From Loxodes magnus (Eukaryota; Ciliophora; Karyorelictea; Loxodida; Loxodidae), in assembly GCA_946699065.1 (NCBI GenBank), contig CAMPDV010000294.1:1-64000 (forward strand): 64,000 bases of DNA, given 5' to 3'. A model generated the notes under the pieces. The model was not told the DNA's origin. It saw nothing but the letters and a program-made list of their open reading frames with translations, and did not search any database. Made by a program: the position numbers and the translations under genes. Below, one piece after another: positions 1 to 59,032 of the stretch (position 1 is its first letter; every line of letters begins with the position of its first letter).

Positions 1-690
1 TACTAAATTTGTTAAATGTAGCCTTTCTAATACTAACCTTACTAGCATCATTACTAAGTAGCCTTATATCATCACTGGTCATTCCAACTACATTACCTCC
101 CTAGCTATCTCCCCAACATTTTTTTGTATTGTATCTGCATCTGGTGACGAAACAAAAAAATCTGGAATTACCACAATCGTACTCTCCTAAGAACTTTAAC
201 TGGACGTACTTCTGACATTAACTCGTAGTTATCTCCCTAGAATCTAACTATATTGAATCAGCATACTTTGACTACTCATAAAGATCTGGAATTTCTACAA
301 TGGTACTCTCCTAAGAACTTTGACTGGTCAATCATCTTTAGTTTTCTCGATTGATATCTCCCTAGACTCTGACTATATTGTATCCGCATCTGGTGACTCT
401 TCTATAAAGATCTGCTCTTTCTCAACTGGTTAGCTAATTCGTACTCTTAAGGTCACAAAGGGATATGTAGAATCGGTAATACTATCATCGGACAATAAGT
501 ATTTAATATCGGGTTCTGAAGATGAAACAATTAAGATATGAAAGTTCTCAACTGGGGAATGTATCTTAACTTTACAGGATCATACGGATCCTGTAGGTAA
601 TTTGTCATTAAGTGTTGACAATTGTTGGTTGATATCAGGAAATGGAAGTAAATTATATAATAATAAAAGTGAAGATTACCATATGAGAAG
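1..690 (+). pseudogene. WD40 repeat protein, 3' part, cut by window edge
   Basis: Four or five WD40 blades can be read on the plus strand, each with the pattern GH...SP(D)S.YI.SASGD..IKIW. The best stretch (about 380-620) reads SSDNKYLISGSEDETIKIW, where the final W is encoded by TGA at 539-541, and TAA/TAG are read as Gln. WD40 proteins form beta-propellers that act as protein-interaction scaffolds; the partner is unknown. The earlier blades (70-370) fall in different frames, so at least two small indels are present; these are either decay or assembly errors. It closely resembles the WD40 gene at 37412-38319, so the two are paralogs. No clear stop: reading runs on into the structured element that starts near 725. 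The 5' end lies outside the window. Confidence 0.8.
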
Positions 691-724
691 ATAGAATATA
701 TAGAGGGTGCTTCATTAAGACATT

Positions 725-880
725 GGGTACCAGGAAGTACCCGTGTAAAGACCTGAACAAGAATCTTGGCAGGAGTCAAGGATGTCAAGACCGAGGTATC
801 AAGTAACAATATGTTGAACGAATGCCTAAGAATAAGGTCTCTTTAGGGAAGTACTCCGACATTGGTTCTATAGGAGACAA
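725..880 (+). ncRNA. Structured RNA-like element, family copy A
   Basis: A GC-richer block in AT-rich surroundings, homologous to 27098-27256. The best conserved part is 751-780 (GAACAAGAATCTTGG and the following bases). Visible helices are GGGTAC/GTACCC (725-730 with 737-742), CTTGG/TCAAG (765-769 with 776-780) and GGTAT/ATGCC (795-799 with 822-826). The last two are also possible in the other copy with changed base pairs, which argues for selection on RNA folding. It directly follows a WD40 gene and could be its 3' UTR or an independent RNA. No known RNA family was recognised. The assignment of a strand rests on the G-U pairs working on this strand. Confidence 0.5.
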
Positions 881-4250: not shown

Positions 4251-5539
4251 TATAAACAATGTTTAGGTTGATACTAAGTTTTTGATCTATGACTGACTAG
4301 TTGAGTTTGAAAAATAAGATTTTGATGAATTGAATAGTAATATAAAATTGAGACTATTAGATAGAATGTTTTTGAGTGATAATGTTGTTAGGATATATTA
4401 AGCAAATGATAGTGTTTTGAATTGAATTAAGGATATGTTTTGTGTTATTATATTTATAAAGGCTAAGCTAGATTATTAGTTATTTATATTGTTTATAATA
4501 TTTACTTTTATATTATGCTATATTATACTTTTAAAATCAAATACCATTTTCTAGTTGTCCTTATCAATTACACTTGTTGGTAACTGATTTGATTGATGTC
4601 TAGTAATAATTTAGTATATAATATAATTTTAGAGTGTACTTAAGATTTGAAATGATATAGAAATAAATAACTCTGATTATAGACATAAATTAGAAGTTAA
4701 TAATAAAATATGTAAATAAAGTAGTTTAAGAGTACACTACATCTTAATAGTATTAACTAGAGAAATCTTACTAATATATTAGTAGATTAAATAAAATAGA
4801 AGATATAGATAGAGGATATTAATAAATAGCTAAAAATAAGTAGTTAATATATTAATTAGAAATATAAAATAGGGTTATAAAGTATAGACTGTGTGGTATA
4901 ATATTAGTAATTCAAATTAATCATATTCAAGTAGTAGTTTATAATAACAATCATTATATAAGCTAAATTCTTACATCTGCTTAATCATATTATTACATAG
5001 ATTATAAATTAAATACTTATCTATTCAAATTTTTAAAAATACCAGCAACAATATCTCAGTAACACTTTAACACTTTATTACACCACCATAACTAAATCAA
5101 CTAACTAACTACATCCTTATTTACTATTATTTAAACTAACTATTTTATAATTCATAAACACACCATTTTGTAGAGACTATATTAGATCATTACATATTAT
5201 CTTTAAAATTACTAAACCTATTTTAAACATTATAGAAAGGATATCAAATTAACACTTCTAGACATTATTTCAAATCAAACAACTACTATCAACAAATCTA
5301 ATACATCAGCTAAAATATATACCTATTATCAAAATATTACCTTAATTACTAATTCCAACATCTCCTTAATTGGAATCAATTTTCATCATAAAATGAAAAA
5401 AGCAAGAAAGTTAGCAAAGATCTTAAAATAAAGGCTAATATGTTTAGTATTCTTTAAAATAGCTAAAGTATCTAAATTAGAAAATTAATTAATAATTAAG
5501 TATTAATTTAAGATAAATATTTAAAGTTGTTAAATGTTT
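4251..5539. other. AT-rich stretch, possible further intron-rich part of the minus-strand gene
   Basis: Some GT...AG-like segments separated by a few bases can be read on the minus strand near 5040-5400, but they are less clean than from 5540 on. No domain recognised on either strand. Confidence 0.3.
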
Positions 5540-5980
5540 TTTCCATCTCTGCTTATATCAAAAATTACCCTCTATAATCAAAACTTACTTAATCATTAAA
5601 TTATTTACATCCTAAAATAGAAAATAACTACCTAGTATAAATAATCTAATATTAATCATTACTATAAACATTCTTTAATCAATTATATTAGGCATTACTT
5701 TCTTTTCAAATCAATCATTACCCCCTAGTAAATAATTAATAATATTACATTCTATATCATTTTATTAGTAACTAAGGTTAAATAATACAAGCTCGTATAA
5801 GCAAATACTAGCTCAATAAAATCAAAACCATCTTATAATGATTTCTTACAATCAAAAATTAAAAAGGTACCTGAAGTAGATTATTACCGCCTGAGGTAAT
5901 TTAGTACCCTCGGTATAATAATAAAAAATACCAGCTATAATAGTTTGTAAATACAAACTGTCTATAAAAAATATTTACAT
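5540..5980 (-). other. Micro-exon zone on the 3' side of the satellite
   Basis: On the minus strand, short segments beginning GT and ending AG, mostly 17-24 nt, are separated by three bases. Examples of the exon triplets in minus orientation are AGG, GAT, GTA, AAA, GGG, AAT, ATG, CTA, CTT, GCG, CTG, ACA and AAT. The introns differ from each other in sequence, so this is not simply the satellite running out. A few positions do not fit (one apparent one-base gap and some longer segments). A larger exon beginning ATGGAAAAAACATTT lies at the 3' side, about 5515-5545. Confidence 0.55.
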
Positions 5981-8900
5981 TCTATAAATTTTAAAATAAC
6001 TTACTCACTATAAATATTTAAAATATCTCACTCACTATAAATATTTAAAATATCTCACTCACTATAAATATTTAAAATATCTTACAATCTATAAATATTT
6101 AAAATATCTTACAATCTATAAATATTTAAAATATCTTACCAACTATAAATATTTAAAATATCTTACAACTATAAATATTTAAAATATCTTACAATCTATA
6201 AATATTTAAAATGTCTTACTCCTATAAATATTTAAAATATCTTACTCCCTAAAATATTTAAAATATCTTACATTCTATAAATATTTAAAATATCTTACCA
6301 TCTATAAATATTTAAAATATCTTACAATCTATAAATATTTAAAATATCTTACATTCTATAAATATTTAAAATATCTTACATTCTATAAATATTTAAAATA
6401 TCTTACATTCTATAAATATTTAAATATCTTACATTCTATAAATAGTTTAAAATATCTTACCAACTATAAATATTTAAAATATCTTACATTCTATAACTAT
6501 TTAAAATATCTTACATTCTATAAATATTTAAAATATCTTACCAACTATAAATATTTAAAATATCTTACATTCTATAAATATTTAAAATATCTTACATTCT
6601 ATAAATATTTAAAATATCTTACCAACTATAAATATTTAAAATATCTACATTCTATAAATATTTAAAATATCTTGCAATCTATAAAAATTTAAAATATCTT
6701 ACAATCTATAAATATTTAAAATATCTTACATTCTATAAATATTTAAAATATCTTACCAACTATAAATATTGTAAAATATCTTACAATCTATAAATATTTT
6801 AAAATATCTTACAATTCTATAAATATTTAAAATTATCTTACATTCTATAAAATATTTAAAATATCTTACATTCTATTAATATTTAAAATATCTTACCAAC
6901 TATAAATATTTATAAATATCTTACATTCTATAAATATTTAAAATATCTTACATTCTATAAATATTTGAAAATATCTTACCAACTATAAATATTTAAAATA
7001 TCTTACATTCTATAAATATTTAAAATATCTTACATTCTATAATATTTAAAATATCTTACTCACTATAAATATTTAAAATATCTTACCAACTATAAATATT
7101 TAAAATATCTTACCATCTATAAATATTTAAAATATCTTACTCACTAATAAATATTTAAAATAACTTACCATCTATAAATATTTAAAATATCTTACATTCT
7201 ATAAATATTTAAAATATCTTACCAACTATAAATATTTAAAATATCTTACAATCTATAAATATTTAAAATATCTTACCAACTATAAATATTTAAATATCTT
7301 ACATTCTATAAATATTTAAATATCTTACCAACTATAAATATTTAAAATATCTTACCAACTATAAATATTTAAAATATCTTACAATCTAAATATTTAAAAG
7401 TCTTACTCCCTATAAATATTTAAAATATCTTACTCCTATAAATATTTAAATAACTTACCATCTATAAATATTTAAAATATCTTACATTCTATAAATATTT
7501 AAAATATCTTACCAACTATAAATATTTAAAATATCTTACAATCTATAAATATTTAAAATATCTTACAATCTATAAATATTTAAAATATCTTACAATCTAT
7601 AAAATATTTAAAATATCTTACCAACTATAAATATTTAAAATATCTTACCAACTATAAATATTTAAAATATCTTACAATCTATAAATATTTAAAATGTTCT
7701 TTACTCCCTATAAATAGTTAAAATATCTTACTCCCTATAAATATTTAAAATATCTTACATTCTTAAATATTTAAAATATCTTACATTCTATAAATATTTA
7801 AAATATCTTACCAACTATAATATATTAAAATATCTTACATTCTATAAATATTTAAAATATCTTACATTCTATAAATATTTAAAACATCTTACCACTATAA
7901 ATATTTAAAATATCTTACATTCTATAAATTATTTAAAATATCTTACATTCTATAAATATTTAAAATATCTTACATTCTATAGAATATTTAAAATATCTTA
8001 CATTCTATAAATATTTAAAACATCTTACCAGACTATAAATATTTAAAATATCTTACATTCTATAAATATTTAAATATCTTACATTCTATAAATATTTAAA
8101 AGTATCTTACCAACTATAAATATTTAAAATATCTTACATTCTATAAATATTTAAAATATCTTGCAATCTATAAAAATTTAAAATATCTTACAATCTATAA
8201 ATATTTAAAATATCTTACATTCTATAAAATATTTAAAATATCTTACCAACTATAATATTTAAAATATCTTACAATCTATAAATATTAAAATATCTTACAA
8301 TCTATAAAATATTTAAAATATCTTACATTCTATAAATATTTAAAATATCTTACATTCTATAATATTTAAAATATCTTACATTCTATAAATATTTAAAATA
8401 TCTTACCAACTATAAATATTTAAAATATCTTTACATTCTACTAAATATTTAAAATATCTTACATTCTATAAATATTTAAAATATCTTACTCACTATAAAT
8501 ATTTAAAATATCTTACATTCTATAAATATTTAAAATATCTTACATTCTATAAATATTTAAAATATCTTACCAACTATAAATATTTAAAATATCTTACATT
8601 CTATAAATATTTAAAATATCTTACATTCTATAAATATTTAAAATATCTTACTCACTAAAATATTTAAAATATCTTACCAACTATAATATTTAAAATATCT
8701 TACCAACTATAAATATTTAAAATATCTTACTCACTATAAATATTTAAAATAACTTACCATCTATAAATATTTAAAATATCTTACATTCTATAAATATTTA
8801 AAAATATCTTACCAAACTATAAATATTTAAAATATCTTACAATCTATAAATATTTAAAATATCTTACCAACTATAAATAATTTAAAATATCTTACATTCT

Positions 8901-11727
8901 ATAAATATTTAAAATATCTTAGCAACTATAAATATTTAAAATATCTTACTCACTATAAATATTTAAAATATCTTACATTCTATAAATATTTAAAATATCT
9001 TACATTCTATAAATATTTAAAATAACTTACCATCTATAAATATTTAAAATATCTTACATTCTATAAATATTTAAAATATCTTACTCACTATAAATATTTA
9101 AAATATCTTACAATCTATAAATATTTAAAATATCTTACATTCTATAAATATTTAAAATATCTTGCAATCTATAAAAATTTAAAATATCTTACAATCTATA
9201 AATATTTAAAATATCTTACAATCTATAAATATTAAAATATCTTACCAACTATAAATATTTAAAATATCTTACATTCTATAAATATTTAAAATATCTTACC
9301 AACTATAAATATTTAAAATATCTTACTCACTATTAAAATATTTAAAATATCTTACCAACTATAAATATCTTAAAATATCTTACCAACTATAAATATTTAA
9401 AATATCTTACTCACTATAAATATTTAAAATAACTTACCATCTATAATATTTTAAAATATCTTACATTCTATAATATTTAAAATATCTTACCAACTATAAA
9501 TATTTAAAATATCTTACAATCTATAAATATTTAAAATATCTTACCAACTATAAATATTTAAAATATCTTACATCTATAAATATTTAAAAATATCTTACCA
9601 ACTATAAATATTTAAAATATCTTACTCACTATAAATATTTAAAATATCTTACCAACTATAAATATTTAAAATATCTTACCAACTATAAATATTTAAAATA
9701 TCTTACTCACTATAAATATTTAAAATAACTTACCATCTATAAATATTTAAAATATCTTACATTCTATAAATATTTAAAATATCTTATTCACTATAAATAT
9801 TTAAAATATCTTACAATCTATAAATATTTAAAATATCTTACATTCTATAAATATTAAAATATCTTACTCACTATAAATATTTAAAATAACTTACCATCTA
9901 TAAATATTTAAAATATCTTACATTCTATAAATATTTAAAATATCTTACTCACTATAAATATTTAAAATATCTTACAATCTATAAATATTTAAAATATCTT
10001 ACATTCTATAAATATTTAAAATATCTTACCAACTATAAATATTTAAATATCTTACAATCTATAAATATTTAAAATATCTTACCAACTATAAATATTTAAA
10101 ATATCTTACATTCTATAAATATTTAAAATATCTTACTCACTATAAATATTTAAAATATCTTACAATCTATAATATTTAAAATATCTTACATTCTATAAAT
10201 ATTTAAAATATCTTACCAACTATAAATATTTAAAATATCTTACAATCTATAAATATTTAAAATATCTTACCAACTATAAATATTTAAAATATCTTACTCA
10301 CTATAAATATTTAAAATATCTTACCAACTATAAATATTTAAAATATCTTACATTCTATAAATATTTAAAATATCTTACCAACTATAAATATTTAAAATAT
10401 CTTACATTCTATAAATATTTAAAATATCTTACATTCTATAAATATTTAAAATATCTTACCAACTATAAATATTTAAAATATCTTACATTCTATAAATATT
10501 TAAAATATCTTACCAACTATAAATATTTAAAATATCTTACTCACTATAAATATTTAAAATATCTTACCAACTATAAATATTTAAAATATCTTACATTCTA
10601 TAAATATTTAAAATATCTTGCAATCTATAAAAATTTAAAATATCTTACAATCTATAAATATTTAAATATCTTACCAACTATAAATATTTAAAATATCTTA
10701 CCAACTATAAATATTTAAAATATCTTACAATCTATAAATATTTAAAATATCTTACCAACTATAAATATTTAAAATAACTTACTCACTATAAATATTAAAA
10801 TATCTCACTCACTATAAATATTTAAAATATCTCACTCACTATAAATATTTAAAATATCTTACAATCTATAAATATTTAAAATATCTTACAATCTATAAAT
10901 ATTTAAAATATCTTACCAACTATAAATATTTAAAATATCTTACCAACTATAAATATTTAAAATATCTTACAATCTATAAATATTTAAAATGTCTTACTCC
11001 CTATAAATATTTAAAATATCTTACTCCCTATAAATATTTAAAATATCTTACCAACTATAAATATTTAAAATATCTTACAATCTATAAATATTTAAAATAT
11101 CTTACAATCTATAAATATTTAAAATATCTTACATTCTATAAATATTTAAAATATCTTACATTCTATAAATATTTAAAATATCTTACATTCTATAAATATT
11201 TAAAATATCTTACATTCTATAAATATTTAAAATATCTTACCAACTATAAATATTTAAAATATCTTACATTCTATAAATATTTAAAATATCTTACATTCTA
11301 TAAATATTTAAAATATCTTACCAACTATAAATATTTTAAAATATCTTACCAACTATAAATATTTAAAATATCTTACTCACTATAAATATTTAAAATATCT
11401 TACCACTATAAATATTTAAAATATCTTACATGCTATAAAAATTTAAAATAACTTACCATCTATAAATATTTAAAATATCTTACATTCTATAAATATTAAA
11501 ATAACTTACCATCTATAAATATTTAAAATATCTTACATTCTATAAATATTTAAAATATCTTACATTCTATAAATATTTAAAATATCTTACATTCTATAAA
11601 TATTTAAAATATCTTACATTCTATAAATATTTAAAATAACTTACCATCTATAAATATTTAAAATATCTTACTCACTATAAATATTTAAAATATCTTACTC
11701 ACTATAAATAATTAAATATCTTACATT
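5981..11727 (-). repeat. 27-bp satellite whose unit is a 24-nt intron plus one codon
   Basis: About 200 tandem units of 27 bp. In minus orientation each unit is a 24-nt segment starting GTAAG and ending TATAG, followed by three bases. The 24 nt are nearly constant. The three bases are almost always one of six triplets: AAT and TTG most often, then ATT, TGA, ATG and GGA. Changes in the first bases remain usable splice-donor forms (GTAAG, GTGAG, and GCAAG near 6672, 8160, 9162 and 10618). Higher-order structure is present: a run with GTGAG variants at 6001-6250 recurs at about 10785-11040, and the GCAAG unit recurs in the same context four times. Many units have one-base gains or losses in A/T runs. 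The array is embedded in a gene of the same architecture, so it looks like tandem amplification of an intron-codon module. Confidence 0.95.
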
Positions 11728-12265
11728 CTATTTTAAATAGAAATACCATCTTATTTTAAGTTTTACCTCCTTTATTTGTTTTTTTTACTTGCTATATATT
11801 AAATAATTTACTTTCTGGATTTGTTAAATTACCAACTTAACATAATTATTTTACAATCTTTTTTATTATATACATTCTATATTTAATTATTACTCCCTTT
11901 CTTAGTATTCTTACAATCTTATTTATTTTATTACATTCTTAAATTTTATTTATTACTTTCTAGTTTTTAAAGTATTACTCACTTTTGTTAAATATATTAC
12001 ACACTTTTTTAAAATTTACCTCCTATACATTTATTTCTAACTTTTTTCGAAGTCATTTTAGCCTTTTTTAAATTTTCTTACTTTCTCCTATTTTTGATTA
12101 TTTAATGCTTTCTAATTTTTATTATTATTTACATTCTATTATTATTATATTTACCATATTATTTTCTCATTATCTCGAAAACTAATTTTTTATTAATTAC
12201 TTTCTATCTTTATTTTTTACCTCCTAAATCTAATTTTCTCACCTCCTTAAATTTATATTAATTAC
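11728..12265 (-). other. Single-codon exons separated by 16-20 nt introns (unique sequence)
   Basis: Reading the minus strand, introns of 16-20 nt (GT...AG) alternate with exons of exactly three bases. At least fifteen occur in a row between 12030 and 11727: GAG, TGT, TGA, AAA, AAT, ATT, GGA, AAT, ATT, TTG, AAA, CAA, GAG, ATG, AAT. The introns are all different in sequence. Closer to the RING exon are exons GAG, GAG, AAA, one of 27 nt and one of about 21 nt, so all exons are multiples of three. Joined after the RING/UBL exon, they give a charged, protein-like reading in either possible phase. One intron may be GC-AG. It continues directly into the 27-bp satellite. Confidence 0.75.
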
Positions 12266-12776
12266 AAGCCTTCAATTTTAATTCTAGCTAAACCTCATCT
12301 CTATTCTCCATTTTATTTATTTTATGCTAACTATCTAATTTTTCTTATCCTTTATAAAGTTCATAAAAATCAGCGTAAATTCCTTCTAGTCTTTCTACTT
12401 TTTATTTCAGTTATTCAATTGTTTCTCCTTCCTCTACTGTTAAGTTTATCTCTTCTTTATTTTTACTTAAAATCTTGACTTTTATTAGTTTTGGTTTCTG
12501 CTAATAAGATAGTTCAATTTTAGTTTCTTCAAGATGAAGTTATTTATATTCTTATTTACTTTCGCTTGATTAGCCCTTTTAGCTTATTAAACTTTTTGGA
12601 TCATTAAATGAAACTTTTCTACAATTTCTTTTTGGGCACTGATTTGAACCCTCTTTTAAGTATTCTTCAAGAATACAAATTTGGCACACTTGATGTCCAC
12701 AAGGAAGGGTTACGGGAATTCGTATTTAAGAGTCGAAATGAACTAAGCATGAGCTGCACCTGTTAGATTCAGCCAT
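12266..12776 (-). CDS. RING-finger plus ubiquitin-like domain protein, first large exon
   Basis: ATG at 12774-12776 opens about 169 codons. Residues 7-52 form a C3HC4 RING: C7, C10, C26, H28, C31, C34, C47 and C52, including PCGHQVCQIC. RING domains bind an E2 enzyme, so this is a likely E3 ubiquitin ligase. Residues about 97-168 resemble ubiquitin: a beta-strand LIKVKIL, then LTVEEGETIEQLKQKVERLEG and LYKGQEKL, as in UBL domains. Gln is encoded by CAA, TAA and TAG. The exon ends near 12266-12270 at a GT or GC donor, depending on which AG-flanked codon follows. The rest of the protein would come from the micro-exons and satellite to the left. It is divergent from the REJ-like gene on the other strand; the 440 bp between them holds the only plausible promoter region. 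Confidence 0.85.
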
Positions 12777-24572: not shown

Positions 24573-24644
24573 TCCCCTTTAGTCTAGTGCTTAGGATATT
24601 CGGCTCTCACCCGAAATATCGGGGTTCAAGCCCCGGATACGGAA
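24573..24644 (+). tRNA. tRNA-Glu (anticodon CTC), imperfect acceptor stem
   Basis: The D-arm region AGTCTAGTGCTTAGGAT, an intact five-pair anticodon stem TTCGG/CCGAA with loop CTCTCAC, and the T-arm GGTTCAAGCC match eukaryotic tRNA-Glu. The acceptor arms TCCCCTT and ATACGGA pair at only four of seven positions, and the T stem has one mismatch. Either this copy has decayed, or the sequence contains errors. Internal promoter boxes A and B are recognisable. Confidence 0.75.
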
Positions 24645-24682
24645 TTATTTTGTTACGCCTACTAAATATATAAAATTAAAAA

Positions 24683-24755
24683 CGCCCAACGTGGGGCTCG
24701 AACCCACGACCACCAGATTAAGAGTCTGACGCTCTACCGACTGAGCTAGCCGGGC
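24683..24755 (-). tRNA. tRNA-Lys (anticodon CTT)
   Basis: On the minus strand GCCCGGCTAGCTCAGTCGG begins a complete 73-nt cloverleaf: acceptor GCCCGGC with GTTGGGC, anticodon loop CTCTTAA, and T-arm GTGGGTTCGAGCCCCAC. It ends with discriminator G, and no CCA is encoded. It decodes AAG lysine. It faces the tRNA-Glu with about 40 bp between them. Confidence 0.96.
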
Positions 24756-36960: not shown

Positions 36961-37411
36961 TAAAACATTTAATTTAATTTTTCAATTAACAATCAAAACT
37001 ATGCACTAACTTTGCATGTACAAATAATATTTTAACTACTTCACAAAAAAATTAAAACTTTAACTTAACTTGAAATTTTTACAAAACCATAATTAAATAA
37101 ATCAATAAAAATTTTATGAAATAAAAACAACTTAAGTTTATTATTTGTCTACGATTACTAAAAGATATATTTAAAATATTTTTAAGCATAACCACTTTAA
37201 ATCACATACTATCACTAATTTCCTATAACCTATTTTTATTTACTCAACTTTTTTTAAGTTAAGAATATAAAAACTTTTAAGAAATTAAATAAATATAATG
37301 AAAACATTTCATAAACAACAAACATAATTACCATTAAACATTCATTTAAATGAATAACCAATATCTTATATCTTTAATCGTAAAATTTAATTAAGTCAAA
37401 TAATAAGTTAC
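36961..37411. other. AT-rich spacer
   Basis: Nothing recognised. Confidence 0.3.
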
Positions 37412-38319
37412 TCAACTCGAAACCCTCCACTTTCTAATCGTATTGTCTCCTCCCGATACCAACCATTTATTATCAATACTCAACGCTATAGAATTATTAA
37501 TCCTACATGCCCTTATAAAGTCTATATACACTCACCCTTATCAAAGTTCCATATTTTGATTGTTTTATCGTAAGATCCAGAAAATATAACACTTGAATCA
37601 ACACTTTACAGAATACTACGTACAGTGCTCGTGTGATCTTAAAGAGTACGAATATACTAACCAGAAGAGAAGTCCCATATATTAATAGTACTGTTACCAG
37701 AACCAGATATTATATACTTATTATCCTTAGACACTATTACCGATCAAACATAACCTGAATTCCCTGATAGAGTTCGCACAAGCTGACTAGTCTAGAAATC
37801 CCAGATCTTTATAGTTGTATCTCCAGATCCTGATATAACATATCTAGAATCAAGGGAGATTACTACCGAGAAAACATAATGAGTATGCCCCGTTATAGTT
37901 CTTTAGAGAGCAGTGTGGAAATTTCAGATCTTTATAGTTGTATCTCTAGATCCCGACACGATATAGCTAGAGTTAGGAGAGATTACTACCGATGAAACTG
38001 CAGAAGTATGTCCCGACAAAGTTCTTACGAGAGAACCATTTTTGAAATTTCAAATCTTTATGGTGTTGTCACCAGATGCTGATACAATATAGCTAGAGTC
38101 CGGGGAGATTATTATCGAGTTAACATCATAAGTATGTCCTGTTATAGTTCTTCGGAGGGCGCCTGTCTAGAAATTTCAGATATTTATCGAATTTTCAGGA
38201 TCTCCTGAACTCCATACAATTCATTTTAGGTCACTTGATATGGCTACCGAGTAAACGTATGAAGAGTCAGTAATGATTTAGTTTAAAAAATATTAAAGAA
38301 ATACCTTTACTTTGGTCAT
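37412..38319 (-). CDS. WD40 repeat protein
   Basis: From MTKVKVFLQYFLNQIITDSS (ATG at 38317-38319) the minus strand reads seven WD40 blades, each about 41-43 residues, for example SPDSSYIVSASGDNTIKIW and SKDNKYIISGSGNSTINIW, enough for a closed seven-blade propeller. Trp of the WD signature is encoded by TGA in several blades and by TGG in others, a direct internal test of the code. It ends RKWRVSS then TGA at 37412-37414. One frame break lies in the last blade (about 37490). An upstream ATG at 38471-38473 opens another frame and could be a 5' exon. It is a paralog of the gene at 1-690. Likely a scaffold protein; target unknown. Confidence 0.85.
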
Positions 38320-39655: not shown

Positions 39656-40041
39656 CATATTTTTAATATGTTATATTGTTATTTTCTGAATTAGAAGATT
39701 TAAGCTTTATAACCTTAATAAAATCAAAAAATCTAGAGTAATTAAAATATCTAAGTTTCCTAATCTTAATCAACAAAGGTCATAAATAAAGAAATCTAAA
39801 TATTGATAGTATCACCGTAAAATAATTCTGAGAATCTCACAGTCAAATAAGATACTACTATCGAAAAAATAAAATAAATGATATAAGAATAAACTAAGTT
39901 ATACTGATGGTCATTGGAAATCTTTAAGAATAAAAAAGAGTTAGGCCACAAAAAGACGATACAATATTATAAGATTGTGGATTGGGAAAAGCTCTAAATG
40001 AGATGGAGTGATCTAAATTTTAAAATAATAATGTGTAGATG
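39656..40041 (+). CDS. Basic protein exon leading into a second micro-exon array
   Basis: A plus-strand frame from about 39690 reads a Lys/Arg/Ile-rich sequence, for example KLSYTDGHWKSLRIKKSQAT and RYNIIRLWIGKSSKWDG, with TGA as Trp, then meets a run of introns starting at 40042. No domain recognised. The start is not defined. Confidence 0.4.
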
Positions 40042-40702
40042 GTAAATGAAAATAATCTTATTATAGGAAGTATGTCACATTGCTAAACTTTCATTTTTAA
40101 TACAGGTAAGTTTAACATTAAATATTCTTAAAAATATAGCAAGTAAGTTAAACATGAAATATTCTTAAAACTATAGTTGGTAAGCTAAACATTTAATATT
40201 CTTAAAACTATAGATGGTAAGTATAAAATTTAATATTCTAAAAACTATAGCACATAAGTAAATATTTAATATTCTTAAAAATATAGCAAGTAATTAAACA
40301 TTTAATATTCCTAAAACTATAGATGGTAAATATAAAATTTAATATTATTAAAACAATAGAATATAAGCATTTATTAATCATTTTAGATGGTAATTAAAAA
40401 TTGATATATGCTTTAAAGTTGGTAATAGTTATTTATTAACAATATTAGATAAATGTATTTTAGCATAAATTTTTTTTCTTATATAGAGAGTAAATTTGGA
40501 CCTTAATTAATTTAGAATGTAAGGGGTATTTATAGTATATTTTATTTATTTAATAGATTGTATCTGTTTTATGACAATTTTTTTAGGAAGTAACATATAT
40601 TGTTAGCATGGTAGAATGTATGCTTTAATGTAAAAATTAATAAGGGGGTAATTTGATCACTAATGCAAAAGGTTGTAAGAATAAATTTAATTATAATAGT
40701 GA
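40039..40702 (+). repeat. Second single-codon exon array, introns about 17-37 nt
   Basis: On the plus strand, segments starting GTAA or GTA and ending TAG or AAG are separated by three bases. The exon triplets in order include ATG, GAA, CAA, TTG, ATG, CAC, CAA, ATG, AAT, ATG, TTG, AGA, AAT, ATT, GAA, GGG, GTT and TGA. The first eight or so introns are diverged tandem copies of a roughly 30-nt unit, and the later ones are unrelated in sequence. The units differ from the 27-bp satellite in sequence and length, and lie on the opposite strand 28 kb away. Two introns begin ATAAG, one exon seems to be four bases and one junction has no exon, so the array is not perfect. Confidence 0.6.
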
Positions 40703-43700
40703 TGAATATGTTTGGTAACGCAATCTTAGAGTGAATTACTTTCATACTTAATAATAACTCTTATTAATTAAAAAAATTATAAAAAAATAGTTTATAATTT
40801 ATATATTTATTTTGTATTTTAGTTTGGTTTAGTTTAAAGAATCATTTAGACAATTAATATTTTTATAGTTAATAATTATTTTGTTTAATTATGCAATTTT
40901 TTTAATTTTAATTTTTGTGTTAGTATTAGATATTTAAATTACTTTAGCTTAAATTTTGTGTATAGATTCTTAATAAAAATAGTATTTTACATGAGGATTT
41001 TATTAATTAATTACTTAGTATGTTTTTACTATATTTACATGAGGATTTTATTAATCTTATTTTTTTCAGTTTAATTTTTATGTTTAATCCATTTTTTATG
41101 AAGGAGCTTACGAATTTTGATTTTTTTTAATTTTTATAAAAAATTCTTAAACGATATTTTTTTATTGAATCTTATAAATGTTATTTATTTTTTTTGTGGT
41201 TAAAGTTTTTATTATAAAATAGTTTGTAATTTTTAGTTCTTTGAAAAGAGTGTATTTATATTTTTAAGAATCGATATAAGAAAATTTAGATATAAATTTT
41301 CTTATATAATAGATGTCATGAGTGGGTGTTAATTATATGTGTTGGATGGCTTGCTTAGTGTTGTTAATAAAAGATTAGTATTAAGTGTTTTCAAAGTATT
41401 AAAAGTTTTAAAGTAATTTAGATTTATGTAATTTAATAATTTTTTTGCTCAGTTTTTTACACTATTGGAAATTATTGCGACAGAATAAATAAGTGAAAGG
41501 CAAGATAAAAAATTAGAAAAGGAATAAAAAAAGTTAAAAAGGGTAAAGGGTTTGGAATATTGATAGAATTTTAAAGAGTGAAAATTTTTAAATTAAGCAT
41601 ATAAAGATTTAGAATGGATTTTTTAAAGGAAAAATGGATTTTATGAAAAATAAAAAAGATTTTTGGGAAATAAAAAAATTTAGAGAAGTGGCTTATTGAA
41701 TTGGATTCGGAAAAATTAAATTTAAAAAAATTAAAAATTTTGATTTGTTTGAACTGCAAGAAATAAAAAAATATTTTAAGAATTTTTAATTTCAAGCAAA
41801 TCAAAAAATCAAAAAATTTTGAGATAAGGTATGGTAAAAATTGTATTTTTCAATACAAAGTAATGCTTTTATTTAAGAATTCGAATCTTTTTTAAGAGTA
41901 ATATGTAAAAAAGTTGTTGGAAAATTAAAATGGTTTAAGAGAGTCTAAAAAAGCCAAATTTTATTTTTGTTTTTTCTCAGTGTTTTACACTTCATGAGAT
42001 TTTCGGACGGAATTAAAATTTTAAAAATTTTATTGCTAAGGCTGAAAAATATTCTTATAAAGATAAAATAATTAGAAGTAAAAAATGTAGATAAAACGTA
42101 TTAAAGAAATTATTATATTTATAAATATTTTTAAAATTTTCTTATTTACTTTTCTAAGAATTTTAATTACAAAAAATTTTAAAGATGGAAAAAAAGAACG
42201 CTTTAAGGAGATTTATATTAAAAGGAGTAAATATTTTTAGATATATTGTAATAATTTTAATAATTTTAATTCTACATAAATTTTTTAATTATATCTCTCA
42301 AATTTCAAATTAAAATATTTGTAATTTAGACTGATTTTATAAAATTTTTAGCTTTTTAAAATAAGAATTTATTAATTTTGTTATTTTTAATATTTGTTAT
42401 AGATAAAGATGATAAATTTAATAAAAATACAATTTGAAAAAATTTAATTTTTTCATGTATATTTATGAATTCAGAAATGCTAAAAACAATTTATAAATAA
42501 CATTTTTTTTCTTTTCATAAATAAATTAAATATAAATGATTAACAAATAGATGAGAGTAAAAACATATTAAATAGTAAAGAAATTAAAATTAAAAAAAAA
42601 GAATTTTTGAATGTCTTTTGATCCACTTATACAAGCTTAAAAGGTTAACTTTTTAATTTAAGAAAACAATTTAATTTTTTAATTGAAGATATGAAAATTT
42701 TTTATTTTGATATTCATTTATTCTAAAAAATCTTAATATAGTAAATTAATATCTACTTATTAAAAAATTTAAAGCTTTCACAATAAATGACTTTAAATTT
42801 ATGTTTAGTGCACGTTAATAATAGCTATAAAACTTATAATTAAGACAAAAATAATTTGAACAATTATTTTCAAGTCATACGATTTTAGAAATCAGATTAA
42901 AAATTCTATATTTTCTAATCTTACTAAAAAGTTACTTTTTTTAATCTACAAGACAAATTTTTTAAATAACGTTGATTTTCTTATGTTCGAACTATTCTGC
43001 GTAGATTTAATCTCATAGCATAATAAAATTTACTTAATATTTTAAATTTAGATTTTTGAACTAAAAGAGTTTTTTTATATCTAGTATCTTTTTACCAATA
43101 GATGCTTGTAAATTTTTAACCAATTAAGTATTAACTTTAATATTTGTGAAAAATAGTTCTCATCATGCTGTTTTTTCTGAATGAAATTTTAAATAGTTAT
43201 AACAGGAATTCTACTAATCAGTTTTTGTAAATAGATAATACATTAAGTAATAAATACAAATTAGAAAATCTCAAAATTCAATCCATTAGTAAAACCAGAT
43301 AATCTTCAGACATATTCCCTTCAAAATAATAGATTTAACCAGAGACCTCTTGTAGATTCGAGCTAAAATCACAATTCCGCTTTTTTATTATGCTTATTTT
43401 TCTAATTATGCCTTATATCTCATTATTAATCAATCAATCTATCTTGCTTTCTTCTCTTCTTCTATTTCTTTCTTTTAAGTTTTCTCCGTTTCAGTATTTA
43501 AACTCTTGTAGATTTTATAATCCTGTGAAGTATTTTTATTTGTAGACAATAGATATTAAATTAATTATTAATAGTAAATAAATATAATTATGTCTTTATT
43601 AATACAAATTTTCAAAAAAACTTATATTTGTTGATTTTACATAAGAATAAGTAATTTTATAGTATAAATATACAAATTAAAAGCAAAAAAAGAAAATTTT

Positions 43701-50300: not shown

Positions 50301-50941
50301 TCTACTTAATTTTTTGCTTTTAAAATAAAGCAAAATTTAAGGAAAAAGATGAGCTAAATTTAGATGTGAAAGAATTTTTATTACTCTCTTATAAAACATA
50401 AGATGAGCAAAAATATAAAAGAAGCTAATAGAAAATACTAGTATATATAAAGAAAAAAAACTAAACTTGCTAAATAAATAATCAAACATAGCATTAAAAT
50501 TCTAGTTATACAAATTTTAGAGATTATTCAAATACATATGAAATTGATAATCTTTTATCTGATTTAAATAATAAAATTAGATATGCATTACTATAGAATA
50601 AAGTGAATATTAGAAAAATGAAACAAATCGTAAACATAAAATTCCTTAGTGAGATATAAATCTAATTTTATCTTTAATAAACTTATTATTTAATTATAAG
50701 TATCATATTAAAATATTAAAACCTTTATATTCATAGGCTTTAGATGAATAAATTATTATTCGATTTTTGAAGTTCTTAATTAATATAAAGTCTATGTAAT
50801 CTAAGGGCTGTTCTTAAATTTTGATTCTGTTTTCTTTTTATCAATTGAAAGATAGAATACTTTAATCAGTTTTATAGGATTTATTTAATCCATTCAGTAT
50901 AAAATCATATTTCTATGATTAATTTATATTTAAAAGTTAAA
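47336..50941. other. Region without a secure gene
   Basis: 47336-48100 is T-rich on the plus strand and gives Lys-rich repeats on the minus strand (KKVKKTEKKSKRPKKLKKK), possibly a basic protein tail. 48200-50900 has mixed composition with pieces that could be coding, but no domain was recognised and no frame is convincing. Confidence 0.3.
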
Positions 50942-53900
50942 TCATTTTTGATAAAAATGTTACAGTTTTTTCTCCTTGCTTATATTTTCTTAGCAAATAG
51001 ATAATTTGTTACTTGACTTCGAACGTGGATTTTATTCTTCACTTTTGTAGTTTTAAACTTCATGACTAGTCATTACATCTTCTTATCATACTCCTTCACA
51101 AAAATCTCCATTTGAGTATTAAAAATATCCTTTACCATGCTTTTTGTCATTCACTCATTATCCTTCATACTTTTCGTTGTTTAAGCAAAAATAAATGCCA
51201 ATACCATTCTTCTACCCTTAATACCAATCTCCTTAATATTTTTCTCCATTTAATAAATATAATTCTCCCTTTCCCTACTGCTTATCCTCTACCCAATATC
51301 CTTCGTATTTATTCCCATTTTTCCAGTTATAAATTCCATATCCATGTCTTAATCCATTTTTCCATTCTCCATTATACTCTTCTCCATTCTAATAATATTA
51401 TTTTCCTTAGCCTTTTTTCATATTTTTTTTCCATTAACCTTCATATCAATCTTCATTAGAATACTTATAAACACCTTTTCCATGTTTGAATCCATCTTTC
51501 CATTCTCCTTAGTAAAAATCTCCGTTCACATAGTAAAATTATCCTATTCCTTCTTTTTTATTATTTCTCCAGTTTCCTTCATATTTACCTTTATTTTACT
51601 TATAAAAACTACCTATTCCTTATTTTTATCCTTAAAATAAATCTCCTTAATATCAATCTCCATTTTAGTACTACATCTTACCCTTTCCTTAAAGTTAATT
51701 TTCTGTTCACTAACCTTTGTATATACTTCCATTACTAAAATTTTAAAATCCTTTTCCATGCCTTTTATCATCAAATCAATCTCCTGAATAAGCATCACCA
51801 TTTTTATAAATTTGATTTCCTTTTCCTTGTCTTTTATCATTTTGTCATTGTCCTTAGTATTCTTCATCATTCTTAAAATTAAATTTCCCATAATCCGATT
51901 TTTAATCATTTAATCAATTTCCTTCATAATAATCTCCATTCGTGTATCTTTATTTTCCCTATCCTTATTTTTTATCTTTATCCCATTATCCTTCATAACT
52001 ATTCCCCAATCACTGAAATTATCCGTATCCTTATCTTAAATTTTCTTTTCAATATCCATCATATATATCTCCATTAACATATCATAATTTACCTTTACCA
52101 TGCTTTTTGTTTTTTTCCATTTATCCTTAATATTTTCCTTAGTTAGAATAAAAAGTTACTATACCATATTTTTCGTTTTCCTTTCAATTTCCCTCATATC
52201 AATCACCGTTGGAATAAAATAATTTTCCTTGTCCATCTCTCTCTCCTTTTTTTCAATAGCCTTCATATTTATTTCCATTACTATAATATTAAATGCCAAA
52301 TCCATGCTCTTTTCCCTCAAAAAATTCTCCTTCATACTTATTTCCTTTTGAATAACTTAAAATTCCTTTGCCTTGTGGCAAATTAAATTCTCATTATCCT
52401 GAATATGTATTTCCATTCTTATATTTATAAGTTCCTATCCCATATAATTAATCATTCATTCATTCTCCTTCATATATATCTCCATTGTTATAAACACTAA
52501 TTCCTTTTCCTTATCTTTTATTCTCGTAGAATGATCCTTCATATCTATCCCCATTTCTAAATAAATAGCATCCATATCCTTATTTTTACGAATTTATTCA
52601 TTCTCCTTCATAAATTCCTTTCTCTTTGTAATAAGCTATTCCAAGTCCCTGTATTACTCCATTTAGATATTATCCTATGAATATATTTTCACTCTAAAAT
52701 TTACAAAACCCTCAGCCATTCTACGAACCTCTTAAAAATTAACCAAAATAGATTTCTTTTTTTGGAAGATTGGACTTTCCTATTCCTTATTGAGTATCTT
52801 CTTCAAAACTCCCCTTATAGTTTTTTCCATTTTTAAATTTTCATTAACCATATCCATGTTTTCAACTATTTAATCATTCTCCTTTGTATATACTTCAAAT
52901 CTTTTTTTAGTCACTTTCTTAATTTTTTGAAAGTATTTCATCTAACTTCACTTTTCATTTTTCTTTAATTTATATTAGTAACTAGTTTATTTCATAAGAG
53001 TTCCCATTTTAAGTTTTTTTCGCGTAGAAATAAGTTCCATATCCTCATAGTTTATTTTCAATTCACTATCCTTCATATTTATCTCCATTCTTGAATCTAT
53101 AAGTACCATTTCCGCATATTTAACTATTAAAAACATCTCCTTCATATTTATCACCATTTTTATATTATATTATACCGTTTCCATATTATTTATCTCCTAA
53201 AAATTACCCTTTATGTATGTCTCCATTTTTAAACTTATAAACTCCAAATCTGAATTTCTAGTTTTCTAGCTGTTAGCCTTCATAGGAATCTTCATTTTTA
53301 TGATGTGGACTTGTCTTCACCACATCCGTTTAGTCTCGCTTCATTCTTTAACTGATTATTTTATCTGAGTTATTTTTGAGTGTGTATGTCAGTAAGTCAT
53401 ATGAAGTTAAGACTTAGTTAAAGAAGAGAATCTATTATTTCTAGATCTTAATAATGTCATGGATTTATCTCCTCAGATTTAAGTATATTTCTTTAACTTC
53501 TTTCTAGCTTTAAATGCTTTATTATTGTTTTTACATGTTTTCTTATGTAAAGCATGCTATTTGCCTTATCTTTTTTACTTTATCGAATAAAAAAAGGTTT
53601 AGCTTCTGACATACTATGTACTTAATTTTCTGTTCCTAAGTTTAAAAGCAAGTTTTATTCTCTATCTTACAACTATTTCAAAATCCTATTCACTTGATAT
53701 CTTCCTCTATATCTTTAACTAGAATTTTTATATAGTCTTACAAGTCTAGCTCATAGATATTATTCTGTCCTTCAAATTATGATAAGTCGCTTATTTCTGA
53801 GATTCTGAATTACGTTCTGAAGTTTATTAAGAATTCAGATATTTTATTGTTTCAGTGCTTTAATATCTCTATTTAGTCTTGGTTATCATAATCCAGTATT

Positions 53901-56900
53901 TCTTGAAATACCATTTTATCATAGGTAAACTCTATGAATCCTGTGCTATATAATTCTAGATCTATAATAAGCCCATTTCCATGCTTTTTACCATGTTTGA
54001 AAAATCCACAATAGAACCATTTGTTTTGGCTATCGTATATTTATCCAAACCCATGAGGATTTCTTTATTCATTGACTTATCCTTCAAACTCCAAGCAGTC
54101 AATATTTTTATAAACTTGATGTATTTACTCCTTATTGATAGTCATCTAAGTTAATGCTGCTTCTTACATCTGTGATATAATTGTGCTTATAAGAGAGTTT
54201 TATATTTATATACTAGGAAATCAATTTGCAGTACTTAAATATTAGCTAATTTCATCAGTTTCATATCCCTTTATAACTTATGACTTTACCTATTTGGCTA
54301 GATTATGCACTACTTTCTCTATAGTTTATTTCAAGAGGTTAACTATTATACCATTTCCATGCTTTAGTCCATTTTTAAATTCTCCTTCATAATAGATCTC
54401 TTCATTCAGCATTCTTCCCATTCCTTCAGGTTAATAGAATTCGTTTATTTATCCTACATAAGTTTAATTATGAAATGATACTTGATCTGAAATATAGTAC
54501 TTAGAATACTATTTGGTGTATAGATCTTGCTATATTAGCTTGATCAAATAAAACCTTTATGACTACTTTTGCTATACTTCTTTAAGTTTTAAAAAAGGAA
54601 TCCTTTCCTTCTTCCTGAGCTCTTTTAAGTAGTTTAAATTATGCTAGTTCTTTAGATCTCATTGGCTATTAGCATACTATTAACATGGTTGCATTACTTC
54701 TCTTTAAGAGTTTTAGTTACTAGTTTCTTGGCCTTAATACTCTAAACCACTAGAACTCTATTAGAAATATACTTCGTTAAGTTTATCTAAACTCTCTTAG
54801 TCAACTTAGTACTGATTATAATTCTCTTCTTGAAGTTTTTGAAAAGTTGACTAGTTGGATTAAATTCTACTAACCGTGAAGTTACTATCTTAGACTTAGT
54901 AAACCTAAAAGCTTCTTCGAACTTCTTTTCGTTTCAATTCTTTAAAATCAAATCTCTAGTGTTCCTCTCATTGAAGTAAATTAAGCAAGAGTACCTATAA
55001 ATCTTCATAATTCTAATCCTATTGATAATGTCAAAGTATTTTGTCAATTAAACTTCTTAATTCTTCCTCGTTCCTTTTTATTTAGTTTAGCTAGAGTCGA
55101 AAGCAATCTTTAAGCGAAGCTATTTCTAATAAAGTAATACCTAACGAAAAAACGTCAGATTTAAAAAGGTTTATTTACTGCTTCAATACTATTTATGGAG
55201 ACTGGTACTGATCATATTATTTTATTGTATCTTGATATCTTATAGATAGCAAAGGATTTGCCTGATCAAAATGTCCTAGTTTATATGTTTGCTTTTACTG
55301 AACTTAGTTAAATTACTACTTTTCTATCCAAATATTTTTAGGCTTTATGCCTTAATGGTATATCCCTATTTCTTGAAGGAAAGCAAGAGCTTCCACCATT
55401 TAATTAAAAACATCGAATATTTCTTTAACCTTAAAAGGTTATTTTTTCTATATAGCTTGCTATAAGTTTCCTGATTCACAATATTGCATTTCCATCCAGT
55501 AAGTATGAGTAAGCTAATTAAAGGAATAGTTATAGATTTGGATGCAGTGCTTTTCATATCTCTCTTTATTAGCTTATAGTTTATGGATAACTTATTCTAG
55601 CTATTTAGTCTAATCTCCATTTTTTAGGATTTTTATAGCTCTTAATTAACCGTTACAATTCTTTGCTTATAGTAATATCGCTTTATCATGGTTGTAAATA
55701 GCTTTAATTAAGGTGTATCCTGGAAAAGTTGTTTGATAGTTGCTTGTAATTGTACCATTCAGATTCAAAGAGTTAAAATATACTTGAGGATCTATTTTTA
55801 AGTAATGCTCTATAAACTTGCTTTCATAGAAATAATTTTTAGGCTTATCGTAGAATGATATGACTATATTATCTCACTATAGCTAGTTAAGTAGATCGAA
55901 TAAAATTGAAGGATTGTTTTGTCCTAAGTAATAAGGACATTGAATGATCCTCCTTTATTAGTCTAGAATTATCCAGTAAAGAAACTTTTCTTTGTTTATG
56001 AAGAACAAAAATTGAGGATTAGCCGTGTGATAATCCTCTAGACATGCTTCTATTAGCTTATAAAACTCTTCCATTTAACCTTGTTCAAGTAATTCTAACA
56101 CTTGATGTTTATCAATTTTCACTTAGTTCTAGTCAATTTAATTTATTACTTACATCAGTGTTGTGAAGTTCTTTAGATTTTAAAAAATTTTGATTCAAAT
56201 CAATTCTAAAACTCCCTATTATTGAAGCTACTAAACAAACTATTTTACTTAGCTTTCACTTTTGATATTTTCCCTACAGTACCTAACAATTTATTAGTTA
56301 GGATATTTAGTAAAATGACGCCAATCATTTTCCTATTCTACTTCTTCAAATACTATAAAACTTAAATAATCTTAATTTCTAGGTTTAAAAAGCTGAGAAA
56401 TAAATAAAGCAACTACGTTGTTATTAATTTAATGCACTTTCAAATCTTTAATTTCATTTTCTTAAAATTAGTTCCTCTAACTTTCTACTTCATTTTAGAT
56501 TATTCAATTTCATACTTACTAGATCTTTAATATATACTAAGCCCAACTTTCGTTACCTGATACTCTTCCAAAAGTTTGCTTTAAGAATTTATTTATTTTC
56601 CTATGGATAAAATAAAACTCTTAAGTAAGCTATGGTTATTACTCTTTTAACTGCTTATTCTTTCCTTATGCAGATAGATTATCTATGATAGTGCTAAATA
56701 TGATATTATATAAGCTACTAGTGCTATCATTTGCGTATTTTTATATTGCCTAGTTTATTGATTCTTGAACAATACCTTCGTTTTGCATATGCACTTTCAG
56801 TCTTTCTACCAATACTTCTTTCTAAGTTTATACTCATTCATCTTCAGAGTAAATTTCTATTCTCTACTAGTCTTCATTATGGTATCAATTTTTCTACACA

Positions 56901-59032
56901 GAGTTGCATATTTGTTAGCATTGAAGCAAGAGAACTTTATTTTATATCTAGTCTTATCAAATTTCTTTACTTTCTATAAGCTTGCCTCTCAAGTATTCAG
57001 GATACTCTATCTATTCAACATTCATATCTTCTTAACTAGACATGTAAGCATAAAGCAACTTAGCATCCTATCCATATAACTATAAATAGTTCATATCATT
57101 TTAAACTATTATCCTATCCACTCTTTCTATCCTAAAGTTAGTCTATACTTTATCAAGTTTCTCTTATAGTTTATACCTTCGATGGTTGCTATCTTTACTA
57201 AAAGATATTACAAGAAACCCCCAAAGCTATATCTCTAAGATACTTTACTAGTTTTAAAAAATTAAGACATTATGTCATATATTATCTCCTTAAGTCTCTA
57301 AGTCTTAGTCTTCTAAATGCTACTCCAAGTTTTAGACTTAGTTGTTTTCTAGTTGAAGTATTATTAGTTCCGTATCTTAATCTTATGCTATTTAGTATCT
57401 TTATAAAACTTATAGAGCTGTTATGAAATTAATCCCTATCCAGTCTTAGATTATCCAAGCGTATAAAATCTTCGTAAGTTCTATCCCATCCCTTAGAAAC
57501 GCTATGAGTTATAATTTCTGCTATTCATCTTAGCAGATTTACGATAGCTTTATTACTACTTGCTACCTCTATATTTTAATGAATTCTTAGCAGTTTTCAC
57601 AATTAGCTTCGTTATGCTTATTCAATACATAAACTGAGTATTATTATCTAGTAGTGCTATCTTATTACTCCAAATACTCTAAAACTACGTTATTTTTGTC
57701 TCTATTGATATCTATTTACAATAGCTACTCATAGCTAAATAGTCATTTGTTGAAGCAATCATAAAGCTTTTCTATTATTTGATAGCTTGATAATTTCTCT
57801 TCTAATGCCCCTCTATAGTCATTCACTTTAGGCTAAGCTTACTTAATTTATTGTTCTCTATAAAATAAATTAAGTTCCTAGGCTTTATCCTAGCAGCATA
57901 GTTTAACCATTAACTTACTTTGAGTTTAGATTGAAATTTCCTTTATTTCTAGATCAGTCTCTTACAGCTCTTCCTTTCTTTCTAGTTTGATAAGCTTTAA
58001 AAAATTGTTCTTCTCCTTGCTGAAGAAGGACTCAATATCTAGCTTATTGAAAGAGATTTAGAATAAGACTTATTTATTTCCATATAGAAAGGCAATTTAT
58101 CTATCTTCTCTCCTTGATAATAAACTAACCAACTAACTCTAGATTTAGTCCAGCTACTCTGAATCCTTTTACTAAAGCATCTATTTAACCTACCTATAGT
58201 CAAAACTTTCCTTCTAGTCAATCTTTCCTCACTAATCTAAAACTTACTTCCACTCCATGCCAACCTACTCCTGAAGCACCAGCGAATACAAGATTTGAAC
58301 TAACCCGAATTTTTACTTAAGCATACAAACTAACTCTTTTTAAAGCTCTTAAGAAGTCTTCACTTGTTATCATTTCTATATTACTAGTTCTCAGTTTAAT
58401 TAAACAAAGTTCAATTTATTATTTGACTAAATTTAATTTTAAGTTTATAAAATAAAAACCTTGAGTCTATTATTATTTATCAGAATTCTATTTTCTACTC
58501 TTTTGCTTTCTAATAAATTCTTATCTATATTCAACTGCCTTTCTCTTATACTCTCTTCATTGCTTTGAGTGTTGAGGGCTTAAATGTATTCTATTTGTTT
58601 GCTTTTTTTTAATTAATTTTCGTTTGTTTCTAGGTTTGTAGTAGTGAACGTTTAGTCTTCAACAGAGTAGATTGGAGAGTTTTAGGTGTATTGCTAGAAA
58701 GATTGTTGATCTACTTCTAATCCTTCATCGATAGGTTAATTGCCAGAGTTTTATTCCTTTAAATCCCTATAACCGTTTGAGTTTCTCATCTAGCTGATTT
58801 CCTAAGAAAGTATTAATTTTGAGTACTAAAGCTATTTACTCTCTAAATAGCTAACTACTATCCTTTCACCAAAAAGCTTATCAGTCATATACCCTTCTCC
58901 TATCAAAAGATCTAGCACCTAATATTCCTTTCTCTTTTGACTGCCTTCATTTTCTTCCAGTCTTAAAGTCTAAGATTCTTATTACTTAGTTATTTAAACT
59001 AGCCTTTTTATGAAGCTATCACTTTGATCCAT
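50942..59032 (-). CDS. Giant coiled-coil/pseudokinase/MORN-repeat protein (2,696 residues)
   Basis: A single frame runs from ATG at 59030-59032 ([20 protein letters not shown]) to a TGA at 50942-50944 with no frame change, if TAA/TAG are Gln and internal TGA are Trp. Residues 1 to about 1090 are hydrophilic, Gln/Glu-rich and coiled-coil-like. Residues about 1100-1390 are a protein-kinase fold: AIKIL with the beta-3 Lys, then [11 protein letters not shown] (hinge) and YHQGIKPKNI in place of the HRDxKxxN loop. It continues with GHFDQA in place of [16 protein letters not shown] and a C-lobe. Both catalytic Asp are missing, so this is a pseudokinase. After a linker with scattered MORN units, residues about 1900-2650 hold some 30 MORN repeats (YEGxWxxxKxHGKGxY), which bind membranes or act as spacers. 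Likely cytoskeleton- or cortex-associated; inferred. Confidence 0.9.
51080..53310 (-). repeat. Array of about 30 MORN repeats (coding)
   Basis: A period of about 69 nt, visible on the plus strand as recurring CCTTCATA and CTCCATT. Minus-strand units read [19 protein letters not shown] and similar. TGA encodes the conserved Trp in units at 51446-51448 and 51155-51157. Part of the gene at 50942-59032; more scattered units occur up to about 54420. Confidence 0.9.

Follow-up and report, generated by a model that had tools for sequence, protein, structure and literature searches.

Predicted tandem tiny introns three bases apart behind two ubiquitin-like domains in Loxodes magnus

Introduction

The locus described here raises the question of how short exons can become, how many of them can stand in a row, and whether such a series would still encode protein. 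It lies in a window of 64,000 nucleotides, the whole stretch of Loxodes magnus DNA that was analysed. An earlier note on this DNA had described, behind an exon with a RING finger and a ubiquitin-like (UBL) domain, at least fifteen consecutive exons of three bases separated by introns of 16-20 nt, had read each exon as a single codon, and had held that a simple satellite cannot explain the arrangement. The species provides a suitable background, as the accessible part of its genome account reports from RNA-seq that introns have a mean length of 19.3 and a mode of 17 nt, with 93% of them at most 25 nt and lengths divisible by three depleted, that translation follows table 27, and that UGA stops occur only near the poly-A tail (PMC11441545). 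The same text lists 231-359 Mbp of low-complexity tandem repeats, of which those of at least 1 kb were masked, so that a core like that of tract 1 (Table 1) would have been masked there (PMC11441545, in part).

Table 1. Positions of the two intron tracts and of the domains that precede them in the window.
Feature	Position	Strand	Description
First exon: RING finger, then ubiquitin-like domain	12266..12776	minus	ATG at 12776
Tract 1, 5' edge	11715..12265	minus	22 introns (to 11728), 19 three-base exons, exons of 27, 30 and 21 nt
Tract 1, core	5995..11714	minus	212 units of 27 bp = 24-nt intron GTAAGATATTTTAAATATTTATAG + variable triplet
Tract 1, 3' edge	5560..5994	minus	mostly 17-nt introns, diverged and set apart by triplets; wear heavier than at the 5' edge
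UBL directly upstream of tract 2	39815..40000	plus	Pfam ubiquitin E 0.0048, below cut-off
Tract 2	40008..40699	plus	20 introns up to GTT (40674), one more to 40699

Results

The 5' edge of tract 1

The coding exon ahead of tract 1 is a good one and ends at 12266, as the earlier note had it: it is open from its ATG if TAA and TAG are read as glutamine, runs for 170 codons plus one base (phase 1), and carries domain matches. If its first intron is left unused, the exon extends to 12243 in phase 0. In a 178-residue version the protein matches Pfam zf-C3HC4 with an E of 5.6e-06, above the cut-off, and ubiquitin with an E of 1.5e-04, below the cut-off, the RING finger beginning at residue 7; as homologues of this RING/UBL protein, 0 of 56 candidates scored. 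Behind this exon the minus strand of 11728-12265 is filled with predicted introns, 22 in number if the first exon ends at 12266; each of them starts with GT, ends with AG and measures 16-21 nt, the lengths peaking at 19 nt, which upholds their description as tiny GT..AG introns and slightly widens the range once given for them. The exons between them begin with GAG (12245), GAG, AAA, a 27-nt exon (12181-12155) and AAT, followed by an exon of 30 nt (12111-12082; 26 nt with the next AG, as in the frame-blind parse described below) and one of 21 nt (12062-12042). Then come fifteen consecutive three-base exons from 12022 to 11725, namely GAG TGT TGA AAA AAT ATT GGA AAT and ATT TTG AAA CAA GAG ATG AAT. 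The 27- and 21-nt exons had both been noted as multiples of three, and to them the exon of 30 (or 26) nt has to be added. On the 30-nt reading each of the 22 exons has a length divisible by three, as opposed to 3 of the 22 introns, and this fits a spliced reading as well as the published depletion of such introns.

Chance does not account for this spacing. The pattern AG-N3-GT is present 20 times in the 556 bases of 11715-12270, whereas 500 dinucleotide shuffles average 2.45 and never yield more than 8; each of the other spacings between 0 and 12 is seen 0-4 times. The longest chain of GT..AG introns (15-36 nt) spaced exactly three bases apart in this region numbers 15, where shuffles give at most 4, and the claim of at least fifteen consecutive three-base exons flanked by AG and GT is therefore borne out far beyond shuffles. 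Seven more introns that a parse rewarding three-base exons put into the RING/UBL exon were discarded, given the open frame and the domain matches of that exon. Interiors of 5' edge introns of the same length resemble one another no more than composition predicts (likeness 0.49 vs 0.48 expected; 63 pairs from 21 introns), and the view that the introns are not copies of one another holds for the edges, where the interiors are unrelated.

The core and the 3' edge

The run of three-base exons is larger than had been claimed, as it continues through the satellite of the core down to about 5560 and is matched by a second tract. TRF reports a 27-bp array of 213.7 copies at 5968-11731, and a wraparound alignment of the 5.7 kb of the core yields the 212 units of Table 1. 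Diversity in these units averages 0.014 over the 24 intron columns and 0.575 over the three triplet columns, making the triplet 41x more variable per site than the intron, with the step falling at the borders AG/NNN/GT. The triplets themselves (n = 212) are AAT (72), TTG (51), ATT (36), TGA (26), ATG (12) and GGA (6), the remainder being six with a deletion and three other words. Indels number 9 in the 636 triplet sites (six deletions and three insertions) and 54 in the 5088 intron sites. Per site, the core triplets are thus hit by indels as often as the introns and, unless the indels are errors of the assembly, the frame of the core is unprotected. The variant GTAAGT of the intron is preceded by the triplet ATG in 10 of 12 cases, as if the triplet types were old, separate lineages of units; despite this pairing the core introns of all triplet types are nearly identical.

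At the 3' edge, AG-N3-GT occurs 16 times in 5540-5994 (mean 1.5, maximum 6 in 500 shuffles), intron lengths peak at 17 nt, and same-length interiors have a likeness of 0.42 against 0.38 expected from composition (37 pairs among 15 of the 17 introns, two of 37-38 nt being left out). A frame-blind parse starting from 12244 finds 250 introns between 12242 and 5560, with 244 GT, 4 GC, 1 AT and 1 CT as donors. The share of three-base exons in this parse is highest in the core (203 of 212), followed by the 5' edge (18 of 21) and the 3' edge (10 of 16), the last 16 including exons of 1, 7, 10, 14 and 23 nt. The earlier argument against a simple satellite accordingly stands for the edges, where unrelated introns have kept AG-3 nt-GT, but excluding a satellite altogether went too far, since a 27-bp repeat of intron and triplet makes up 212 of the about 250 units.

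A second tract behind a second UBL

Tract 2 has the same design as tract 1 in different sequences. Its exons are three bases long in 18 of 20 cases, the other two measuring 39 and 6 nt; the 39-nt exon (40067-40105) can alternatively be parsed as GAA, a 36-nt intron and a 4-nt exon. Introns measure 33-34 nt in its core (40106-40359) and mostly 24-32 nt later on, 17-34 nt overall, and 3 of 20 donors are AT. AG-N3-GT occurs 18 times in 40030-40735, compared with a mean of 2.2 and a maximum of 7 in 500 shuffles. The UBL domain before it shares 20 of 75 residues with that of tract 1 (single-comparison E 2e-07), and both tracts sit behind the only two UBL domains found in the window, a third not being found in a six-frame scan of the window with a profile from both UBLs and ubiquitin, which could miss distant ones. 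The flanks scanned around both tracts gave no other Pfam domains, the UBL alone, and their DNA shows short, weak matches at most between tracts 1 and 2. Downstream of the tracts, at 40700-42700 (plus) and 4760-5560 (minus), the gene strand is C-poor (about 4-8%), and the stretches scanned in these regions gave 0 Pfam matches.

Controls across the window

In the whole window and on both strands, chains of at least six introns occur at spacing 3 only (spacings 0-9 tried), and a chance origin of the AG-N3-GT series is rejected by the shuffles together with these other spacings. An unspliced coding repeat is likewise rejected for the 5' edge, where the lengths of only 3 of 22 introns are divisible by three, and for the core it is weakened by the presence of pieces of 26 nt (24 of 201) and 28 nt (19). 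With the core masked, AG-N3-GT occurs 138 times on the plus and 167 times on the minus strand of the window, the other spacings giving 108-132 and 117-145, respectively; once the tracts' own 18 (plus) and 36 (minus) are subtracted by hand there is no excess, and three-base exons elsewhere in the window were rejected. Among candidate relatives from contigs of viruses and prokaryotes (11, 3 and 8 loci), spacing-3 chains go no further than 7 in L022 and 6 in L014, the latter being a short simple repeat, and spacing-0 chains of 7-10 occur in L002, L009 and L018; from these chain tests we take the candidates to be chance or simple repeats. The joined string GAGTGTTGAAAAAATATTGGAAATATTTTGAAACAAGAGATGAAT, predicted from 12022-11725, is absent from the window even with 3 mismatches.

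Genetic code, intron class and reading phase

Six tryptophan positions in WD repeats, spaced 123-126 nt, are written three times as TGA (38178, 38052, 37926) and three times as TGG, and UGA stands for tryptophan at 539 as well; the code found in the window is that of karyorelicts (table 27), with UAA and UAG as Q and UGA as W within coding regions. Taken with AT-rich DNA and introns of 16-21 nt, this code matches what has been published for Loxodes magnus (PMC11441545). The 5' edge falls within the tiny-intron class of this organism, as its introns run GT..AG, are 16-21 nt long and in 3 of 22 cases divisible by three, and the 3' edge has its peak at 17 nt. Tract 2 fits that class less well, with lengths of 17-34 nt against a published mode of 17 and three AT donors.

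The first introns of both tracts (12265-12246 and 40008-40038) split a codon after its first base, which is phase 1, and it is also at this offset that the 5' edge, the 3' edge, tract 2 and the core each agree best with codon usage in the window's genes. Over the two edges and tract 2 its lead amounts to 12.1 log units in 103 codons, a value reached by 8 of 2000 base shuffles and by 699 of 2000 shuffles of triplet order, so the codon signal sits in the set of triplets and not in their order. Splice-site preferences around the triplet could also produce such a fit, whose basis in the core is a set of about six words. At the phase-1 offset UGA appears in 0 of 44 codons at the 5' edge, 0 of 27 at the 3' edge, 1 of 32 in tract 2 and 0 of 199 in the core, compared with 26 of 206 and 39 of 199 at the other two offsets of the core; one further UGA lies in phase 1 at the exon 1 junction (codon 170) and would have to be tryptophan. 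Taken as whole codons the triplets fit badly, AAT accounting for 10 of 56 vs 3.7% and ATG for 7 of 56 vs 0.6% in a reference of 842 codons from the kinase, RING and WD-repeat regions. A phase 0 reading, with the first exon running to 12243 and the triplets as whole codons, was set aside as the offset tests favour phase 1.

The idea of single-codon exons is disfavoured by these comparisons: with phase 1 fitting best in all four segments, the exons are probably not whole codons, and each would instead contribute two bases of one codon and one of the next. In phase 1 the 5' edge reads GEIFEIMRKQYEQSIKQSKIGESQNDFEKRVLKKYWKYFETRDE, and the predicted tail behind the UBL domain begins GEIFEIMRKQYEQ... 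Translation of the edges is plausible, with codon usage in its favour, and that of the core is doubtful because its triplets are not spared indels.

Discussion

Taken as a whole, our analysis leaves the anatomy of the two tracts certain: both consist of tandem tiny introns with a spacing of three bases. The gradient from core to edge and the presence of a UBL domain before both tracts are established at the level of the sequence comparisons made here, and serial splicing of the tract appears likely. The interiors of the edge introns are saturated while GT, AG and the spacing have been kept, so that common descent or drift alone would be insufficient, and we infer selection for splicing of the series. 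We consider it fairly probable that each tract represents an ageing array of intron plus 3-nt units at the 3' end of karyorelict-type UBL genes. In such an array splicing would pair sites about 16-35 nt apart, and a long insertion could be removed from the RNA only piecewise; a unit of intron plus 3 nt could duplicate without shifting the frame and would be free to grow by unequal exchange. Young copies would lie mid-array with uniform introns of 24 or 33-34 nt and old copies at the edges, where interiors would have drifted to saturation and introns would shrink towards the length preferred by splicing (16-21 nt in tract 1) with GT, AG and the 3-nt spacing retained. The transcript would presumably be spliced intron by intron, because skipping even one core exon needs an intron of 51 nt. 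Roughly nine tenths of the core would be lost on splicing, with three bases of each unit joined into a tail that would follow the UBL domain and be read in phase 1.

Uniform introns beside triplets that vary at all three positions are unaccounted for by duplication of whole units, and either splicing constrains the core intron very tightly or introns were copied without their exons. A bolder version, which we put forward tentatively, would make tract 1 a minisatellite spliced throughout, with about 250 introns, its joined bases translated in phase 1 and its intron homogenised or copied independently of the triplet. It is also possible, though we would not expect it, that the series is spliced yet mostly noncoding, the protein ending at an early UGA or somewhere inside the 5' edge, with the remainder of the tract forming a spliced 3' UTR or noncoding tail that is tolerated because it is mostly removed. 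Core triplets that are not spared indels, a triplet order without codon signal, and a UGA as the first tract codon in phase 1 are all in keeping with such a tail. It would however place several hundred joined bases behind the stop, where the available text on this species has UGA stops only near the poly-A tail (PMC11441545), and the two edges and tract 2 all favour one and the same phase. That we are dealing with a plain satellite, a repeat of 27 bp (elsewhere 37 bp) derived from an intron-like piece and not serially spliced, is unlikely. The 27-bp array that TRF finds in the core agrees with it, and some multi-unit triplet blocks recur, the longest exact repeat (9) being also reached in 200 order shuffles; but variation is not spread evenly over the unit and jumps 41-fold at the exon borders, and a satellite leaves unexplained the saturated intron interiors with AG-3-GT retained, the equal spacing of a different repeat in tract 2, and the UBL domain before both tracts.

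Two further accounts would change what the pieces are for. Host genes release snoRNAs from tandem introns, and here too the introns might be the product, as 24-nt RNAs from debranched lariats, with the exons serving as spacers. A core intron nearly invariant over 212 copies next to a free triplet would suit this role, and SNHG14 offers a precedent with 48 tandem introns carrying SNORD115 (PMC11608373, in part). Nevertheless, the introns of the edges and of tract 2 differ from the core intron and no Rfam family reaches threshold in the tract, and we regard the proposal as quite improbable. Ciliates are also known for programmed DNA elimination, which lends some background to the thought that the pieces are tiny internally eliminated sequences, lost from the somatic nucleus and not from RNA. 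Their GT...AG borders and intron-like lengths speak against it, as does the reported absence of canonical eliminated sequences in Loxodes magnus (PMC11441545, as far as its accessible text goes), and it deserves very little credence.

Of the systems with which an ageing array of introns can be compared, the leucine-rich repeat (LRR) genes of Tetrahymena are among the closest. In the accessible part of that study, tandem 90-bp exons encode the repeats, are separated by phase 2 introns and have expanded clonally; in T. thermophila a gene has 1 to 51 such exons, and intron lengths peak at about 122-257 bp; young arrays have long uniform introns and old ones have introns near the genome's usual length (PMC6564038). 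On that account both cases involve a ciliate, a tandem exon/intron unit, a fixed exon length divisible by three and a single intron phase, but here the exons have 3 nt, the introns 16-34 nt, about 250 of them stand in a row, and phase 1 is favoured. By analogy, then, the tract would work like the Tetrahymena arrays but is not one of them. Schistosome micro-exon genes, as described in the available text, have 10-20 exons of mostly 15 bp (range 6-81 bp in the main text, 3-81 in the abstract), introns of 0.1-5 kb, a signal peptide and verified proteins (PMC10526429). What they share with our tracts is a succession of very short exons whose lengths are mostly divisible by three; they differ in exon length and in their long introns, the ones here being 16-34 nt. 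In size the introns resemble those published for Loxodes magnus (16-25 nt, PMC11441545) and Stentor (15-16 nt, PMC9505925), two accounts whose accessible portions mention no series of three-base exons. Spliced exons of 3 nt and 1 nt are described from Drosophila homothorax (PMC7392893) and Arabidopsis (PMC4674806), where the texts, as far as available, concern isolated exons and not series. Our literature search, with subscription papers and preprints mostly outside its reach, found no gene with a series of 3-nt exons.

If the tracts are spliced, they would present a limit case for the spliceosome, with hundreds of introns three bases apart that are probably removed strictly in turn, and would show how a long insertion survives in a gene of an organism with short introns only, namely by being tiled with introns. 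Some masked satellite DNA would then be genic, and if the reading as a spliced minisatellite is true, such arrays could form part of the low-complexity tandem DNA of karyorelicts that has been masked so far. Ordinary read mapping across several 3-nt exons is expected to miss splicing of this kind, and should RNA confirm it, the locus would count as an extreme of gene fragmentation. Moreover, a free triplet beside a near-invariant intron poses a clean question on how introns multiply.

Other features of the window

WD-repeat genes lie at 37400-38315 (minus) and 1-800 (plus). By eye, the plus-strand gene is seemingly one base short in a run of A, which suggests either a pseudogene or a homopolymer assembly error; assembly errors are thus possible in this contig, and this bears on the indels of the core triplets. 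A protein kinase domain at 54926-55660 (minus, E 8.1e-23) is contained in a single stretch and a single frame, so that ordinary genes in this DNA can have few introns. Elsewhere in 50500-64000, where two of the three minus-strand frames were scanned, the kinase's frame has seven MORN stretches. Finally, 24573-24755 has one tRNA match on each strand, the two being separated by fewer than 50 bases; of these, ARAGORN reports just the tRNA-Lys(ctt) of the minus strand.
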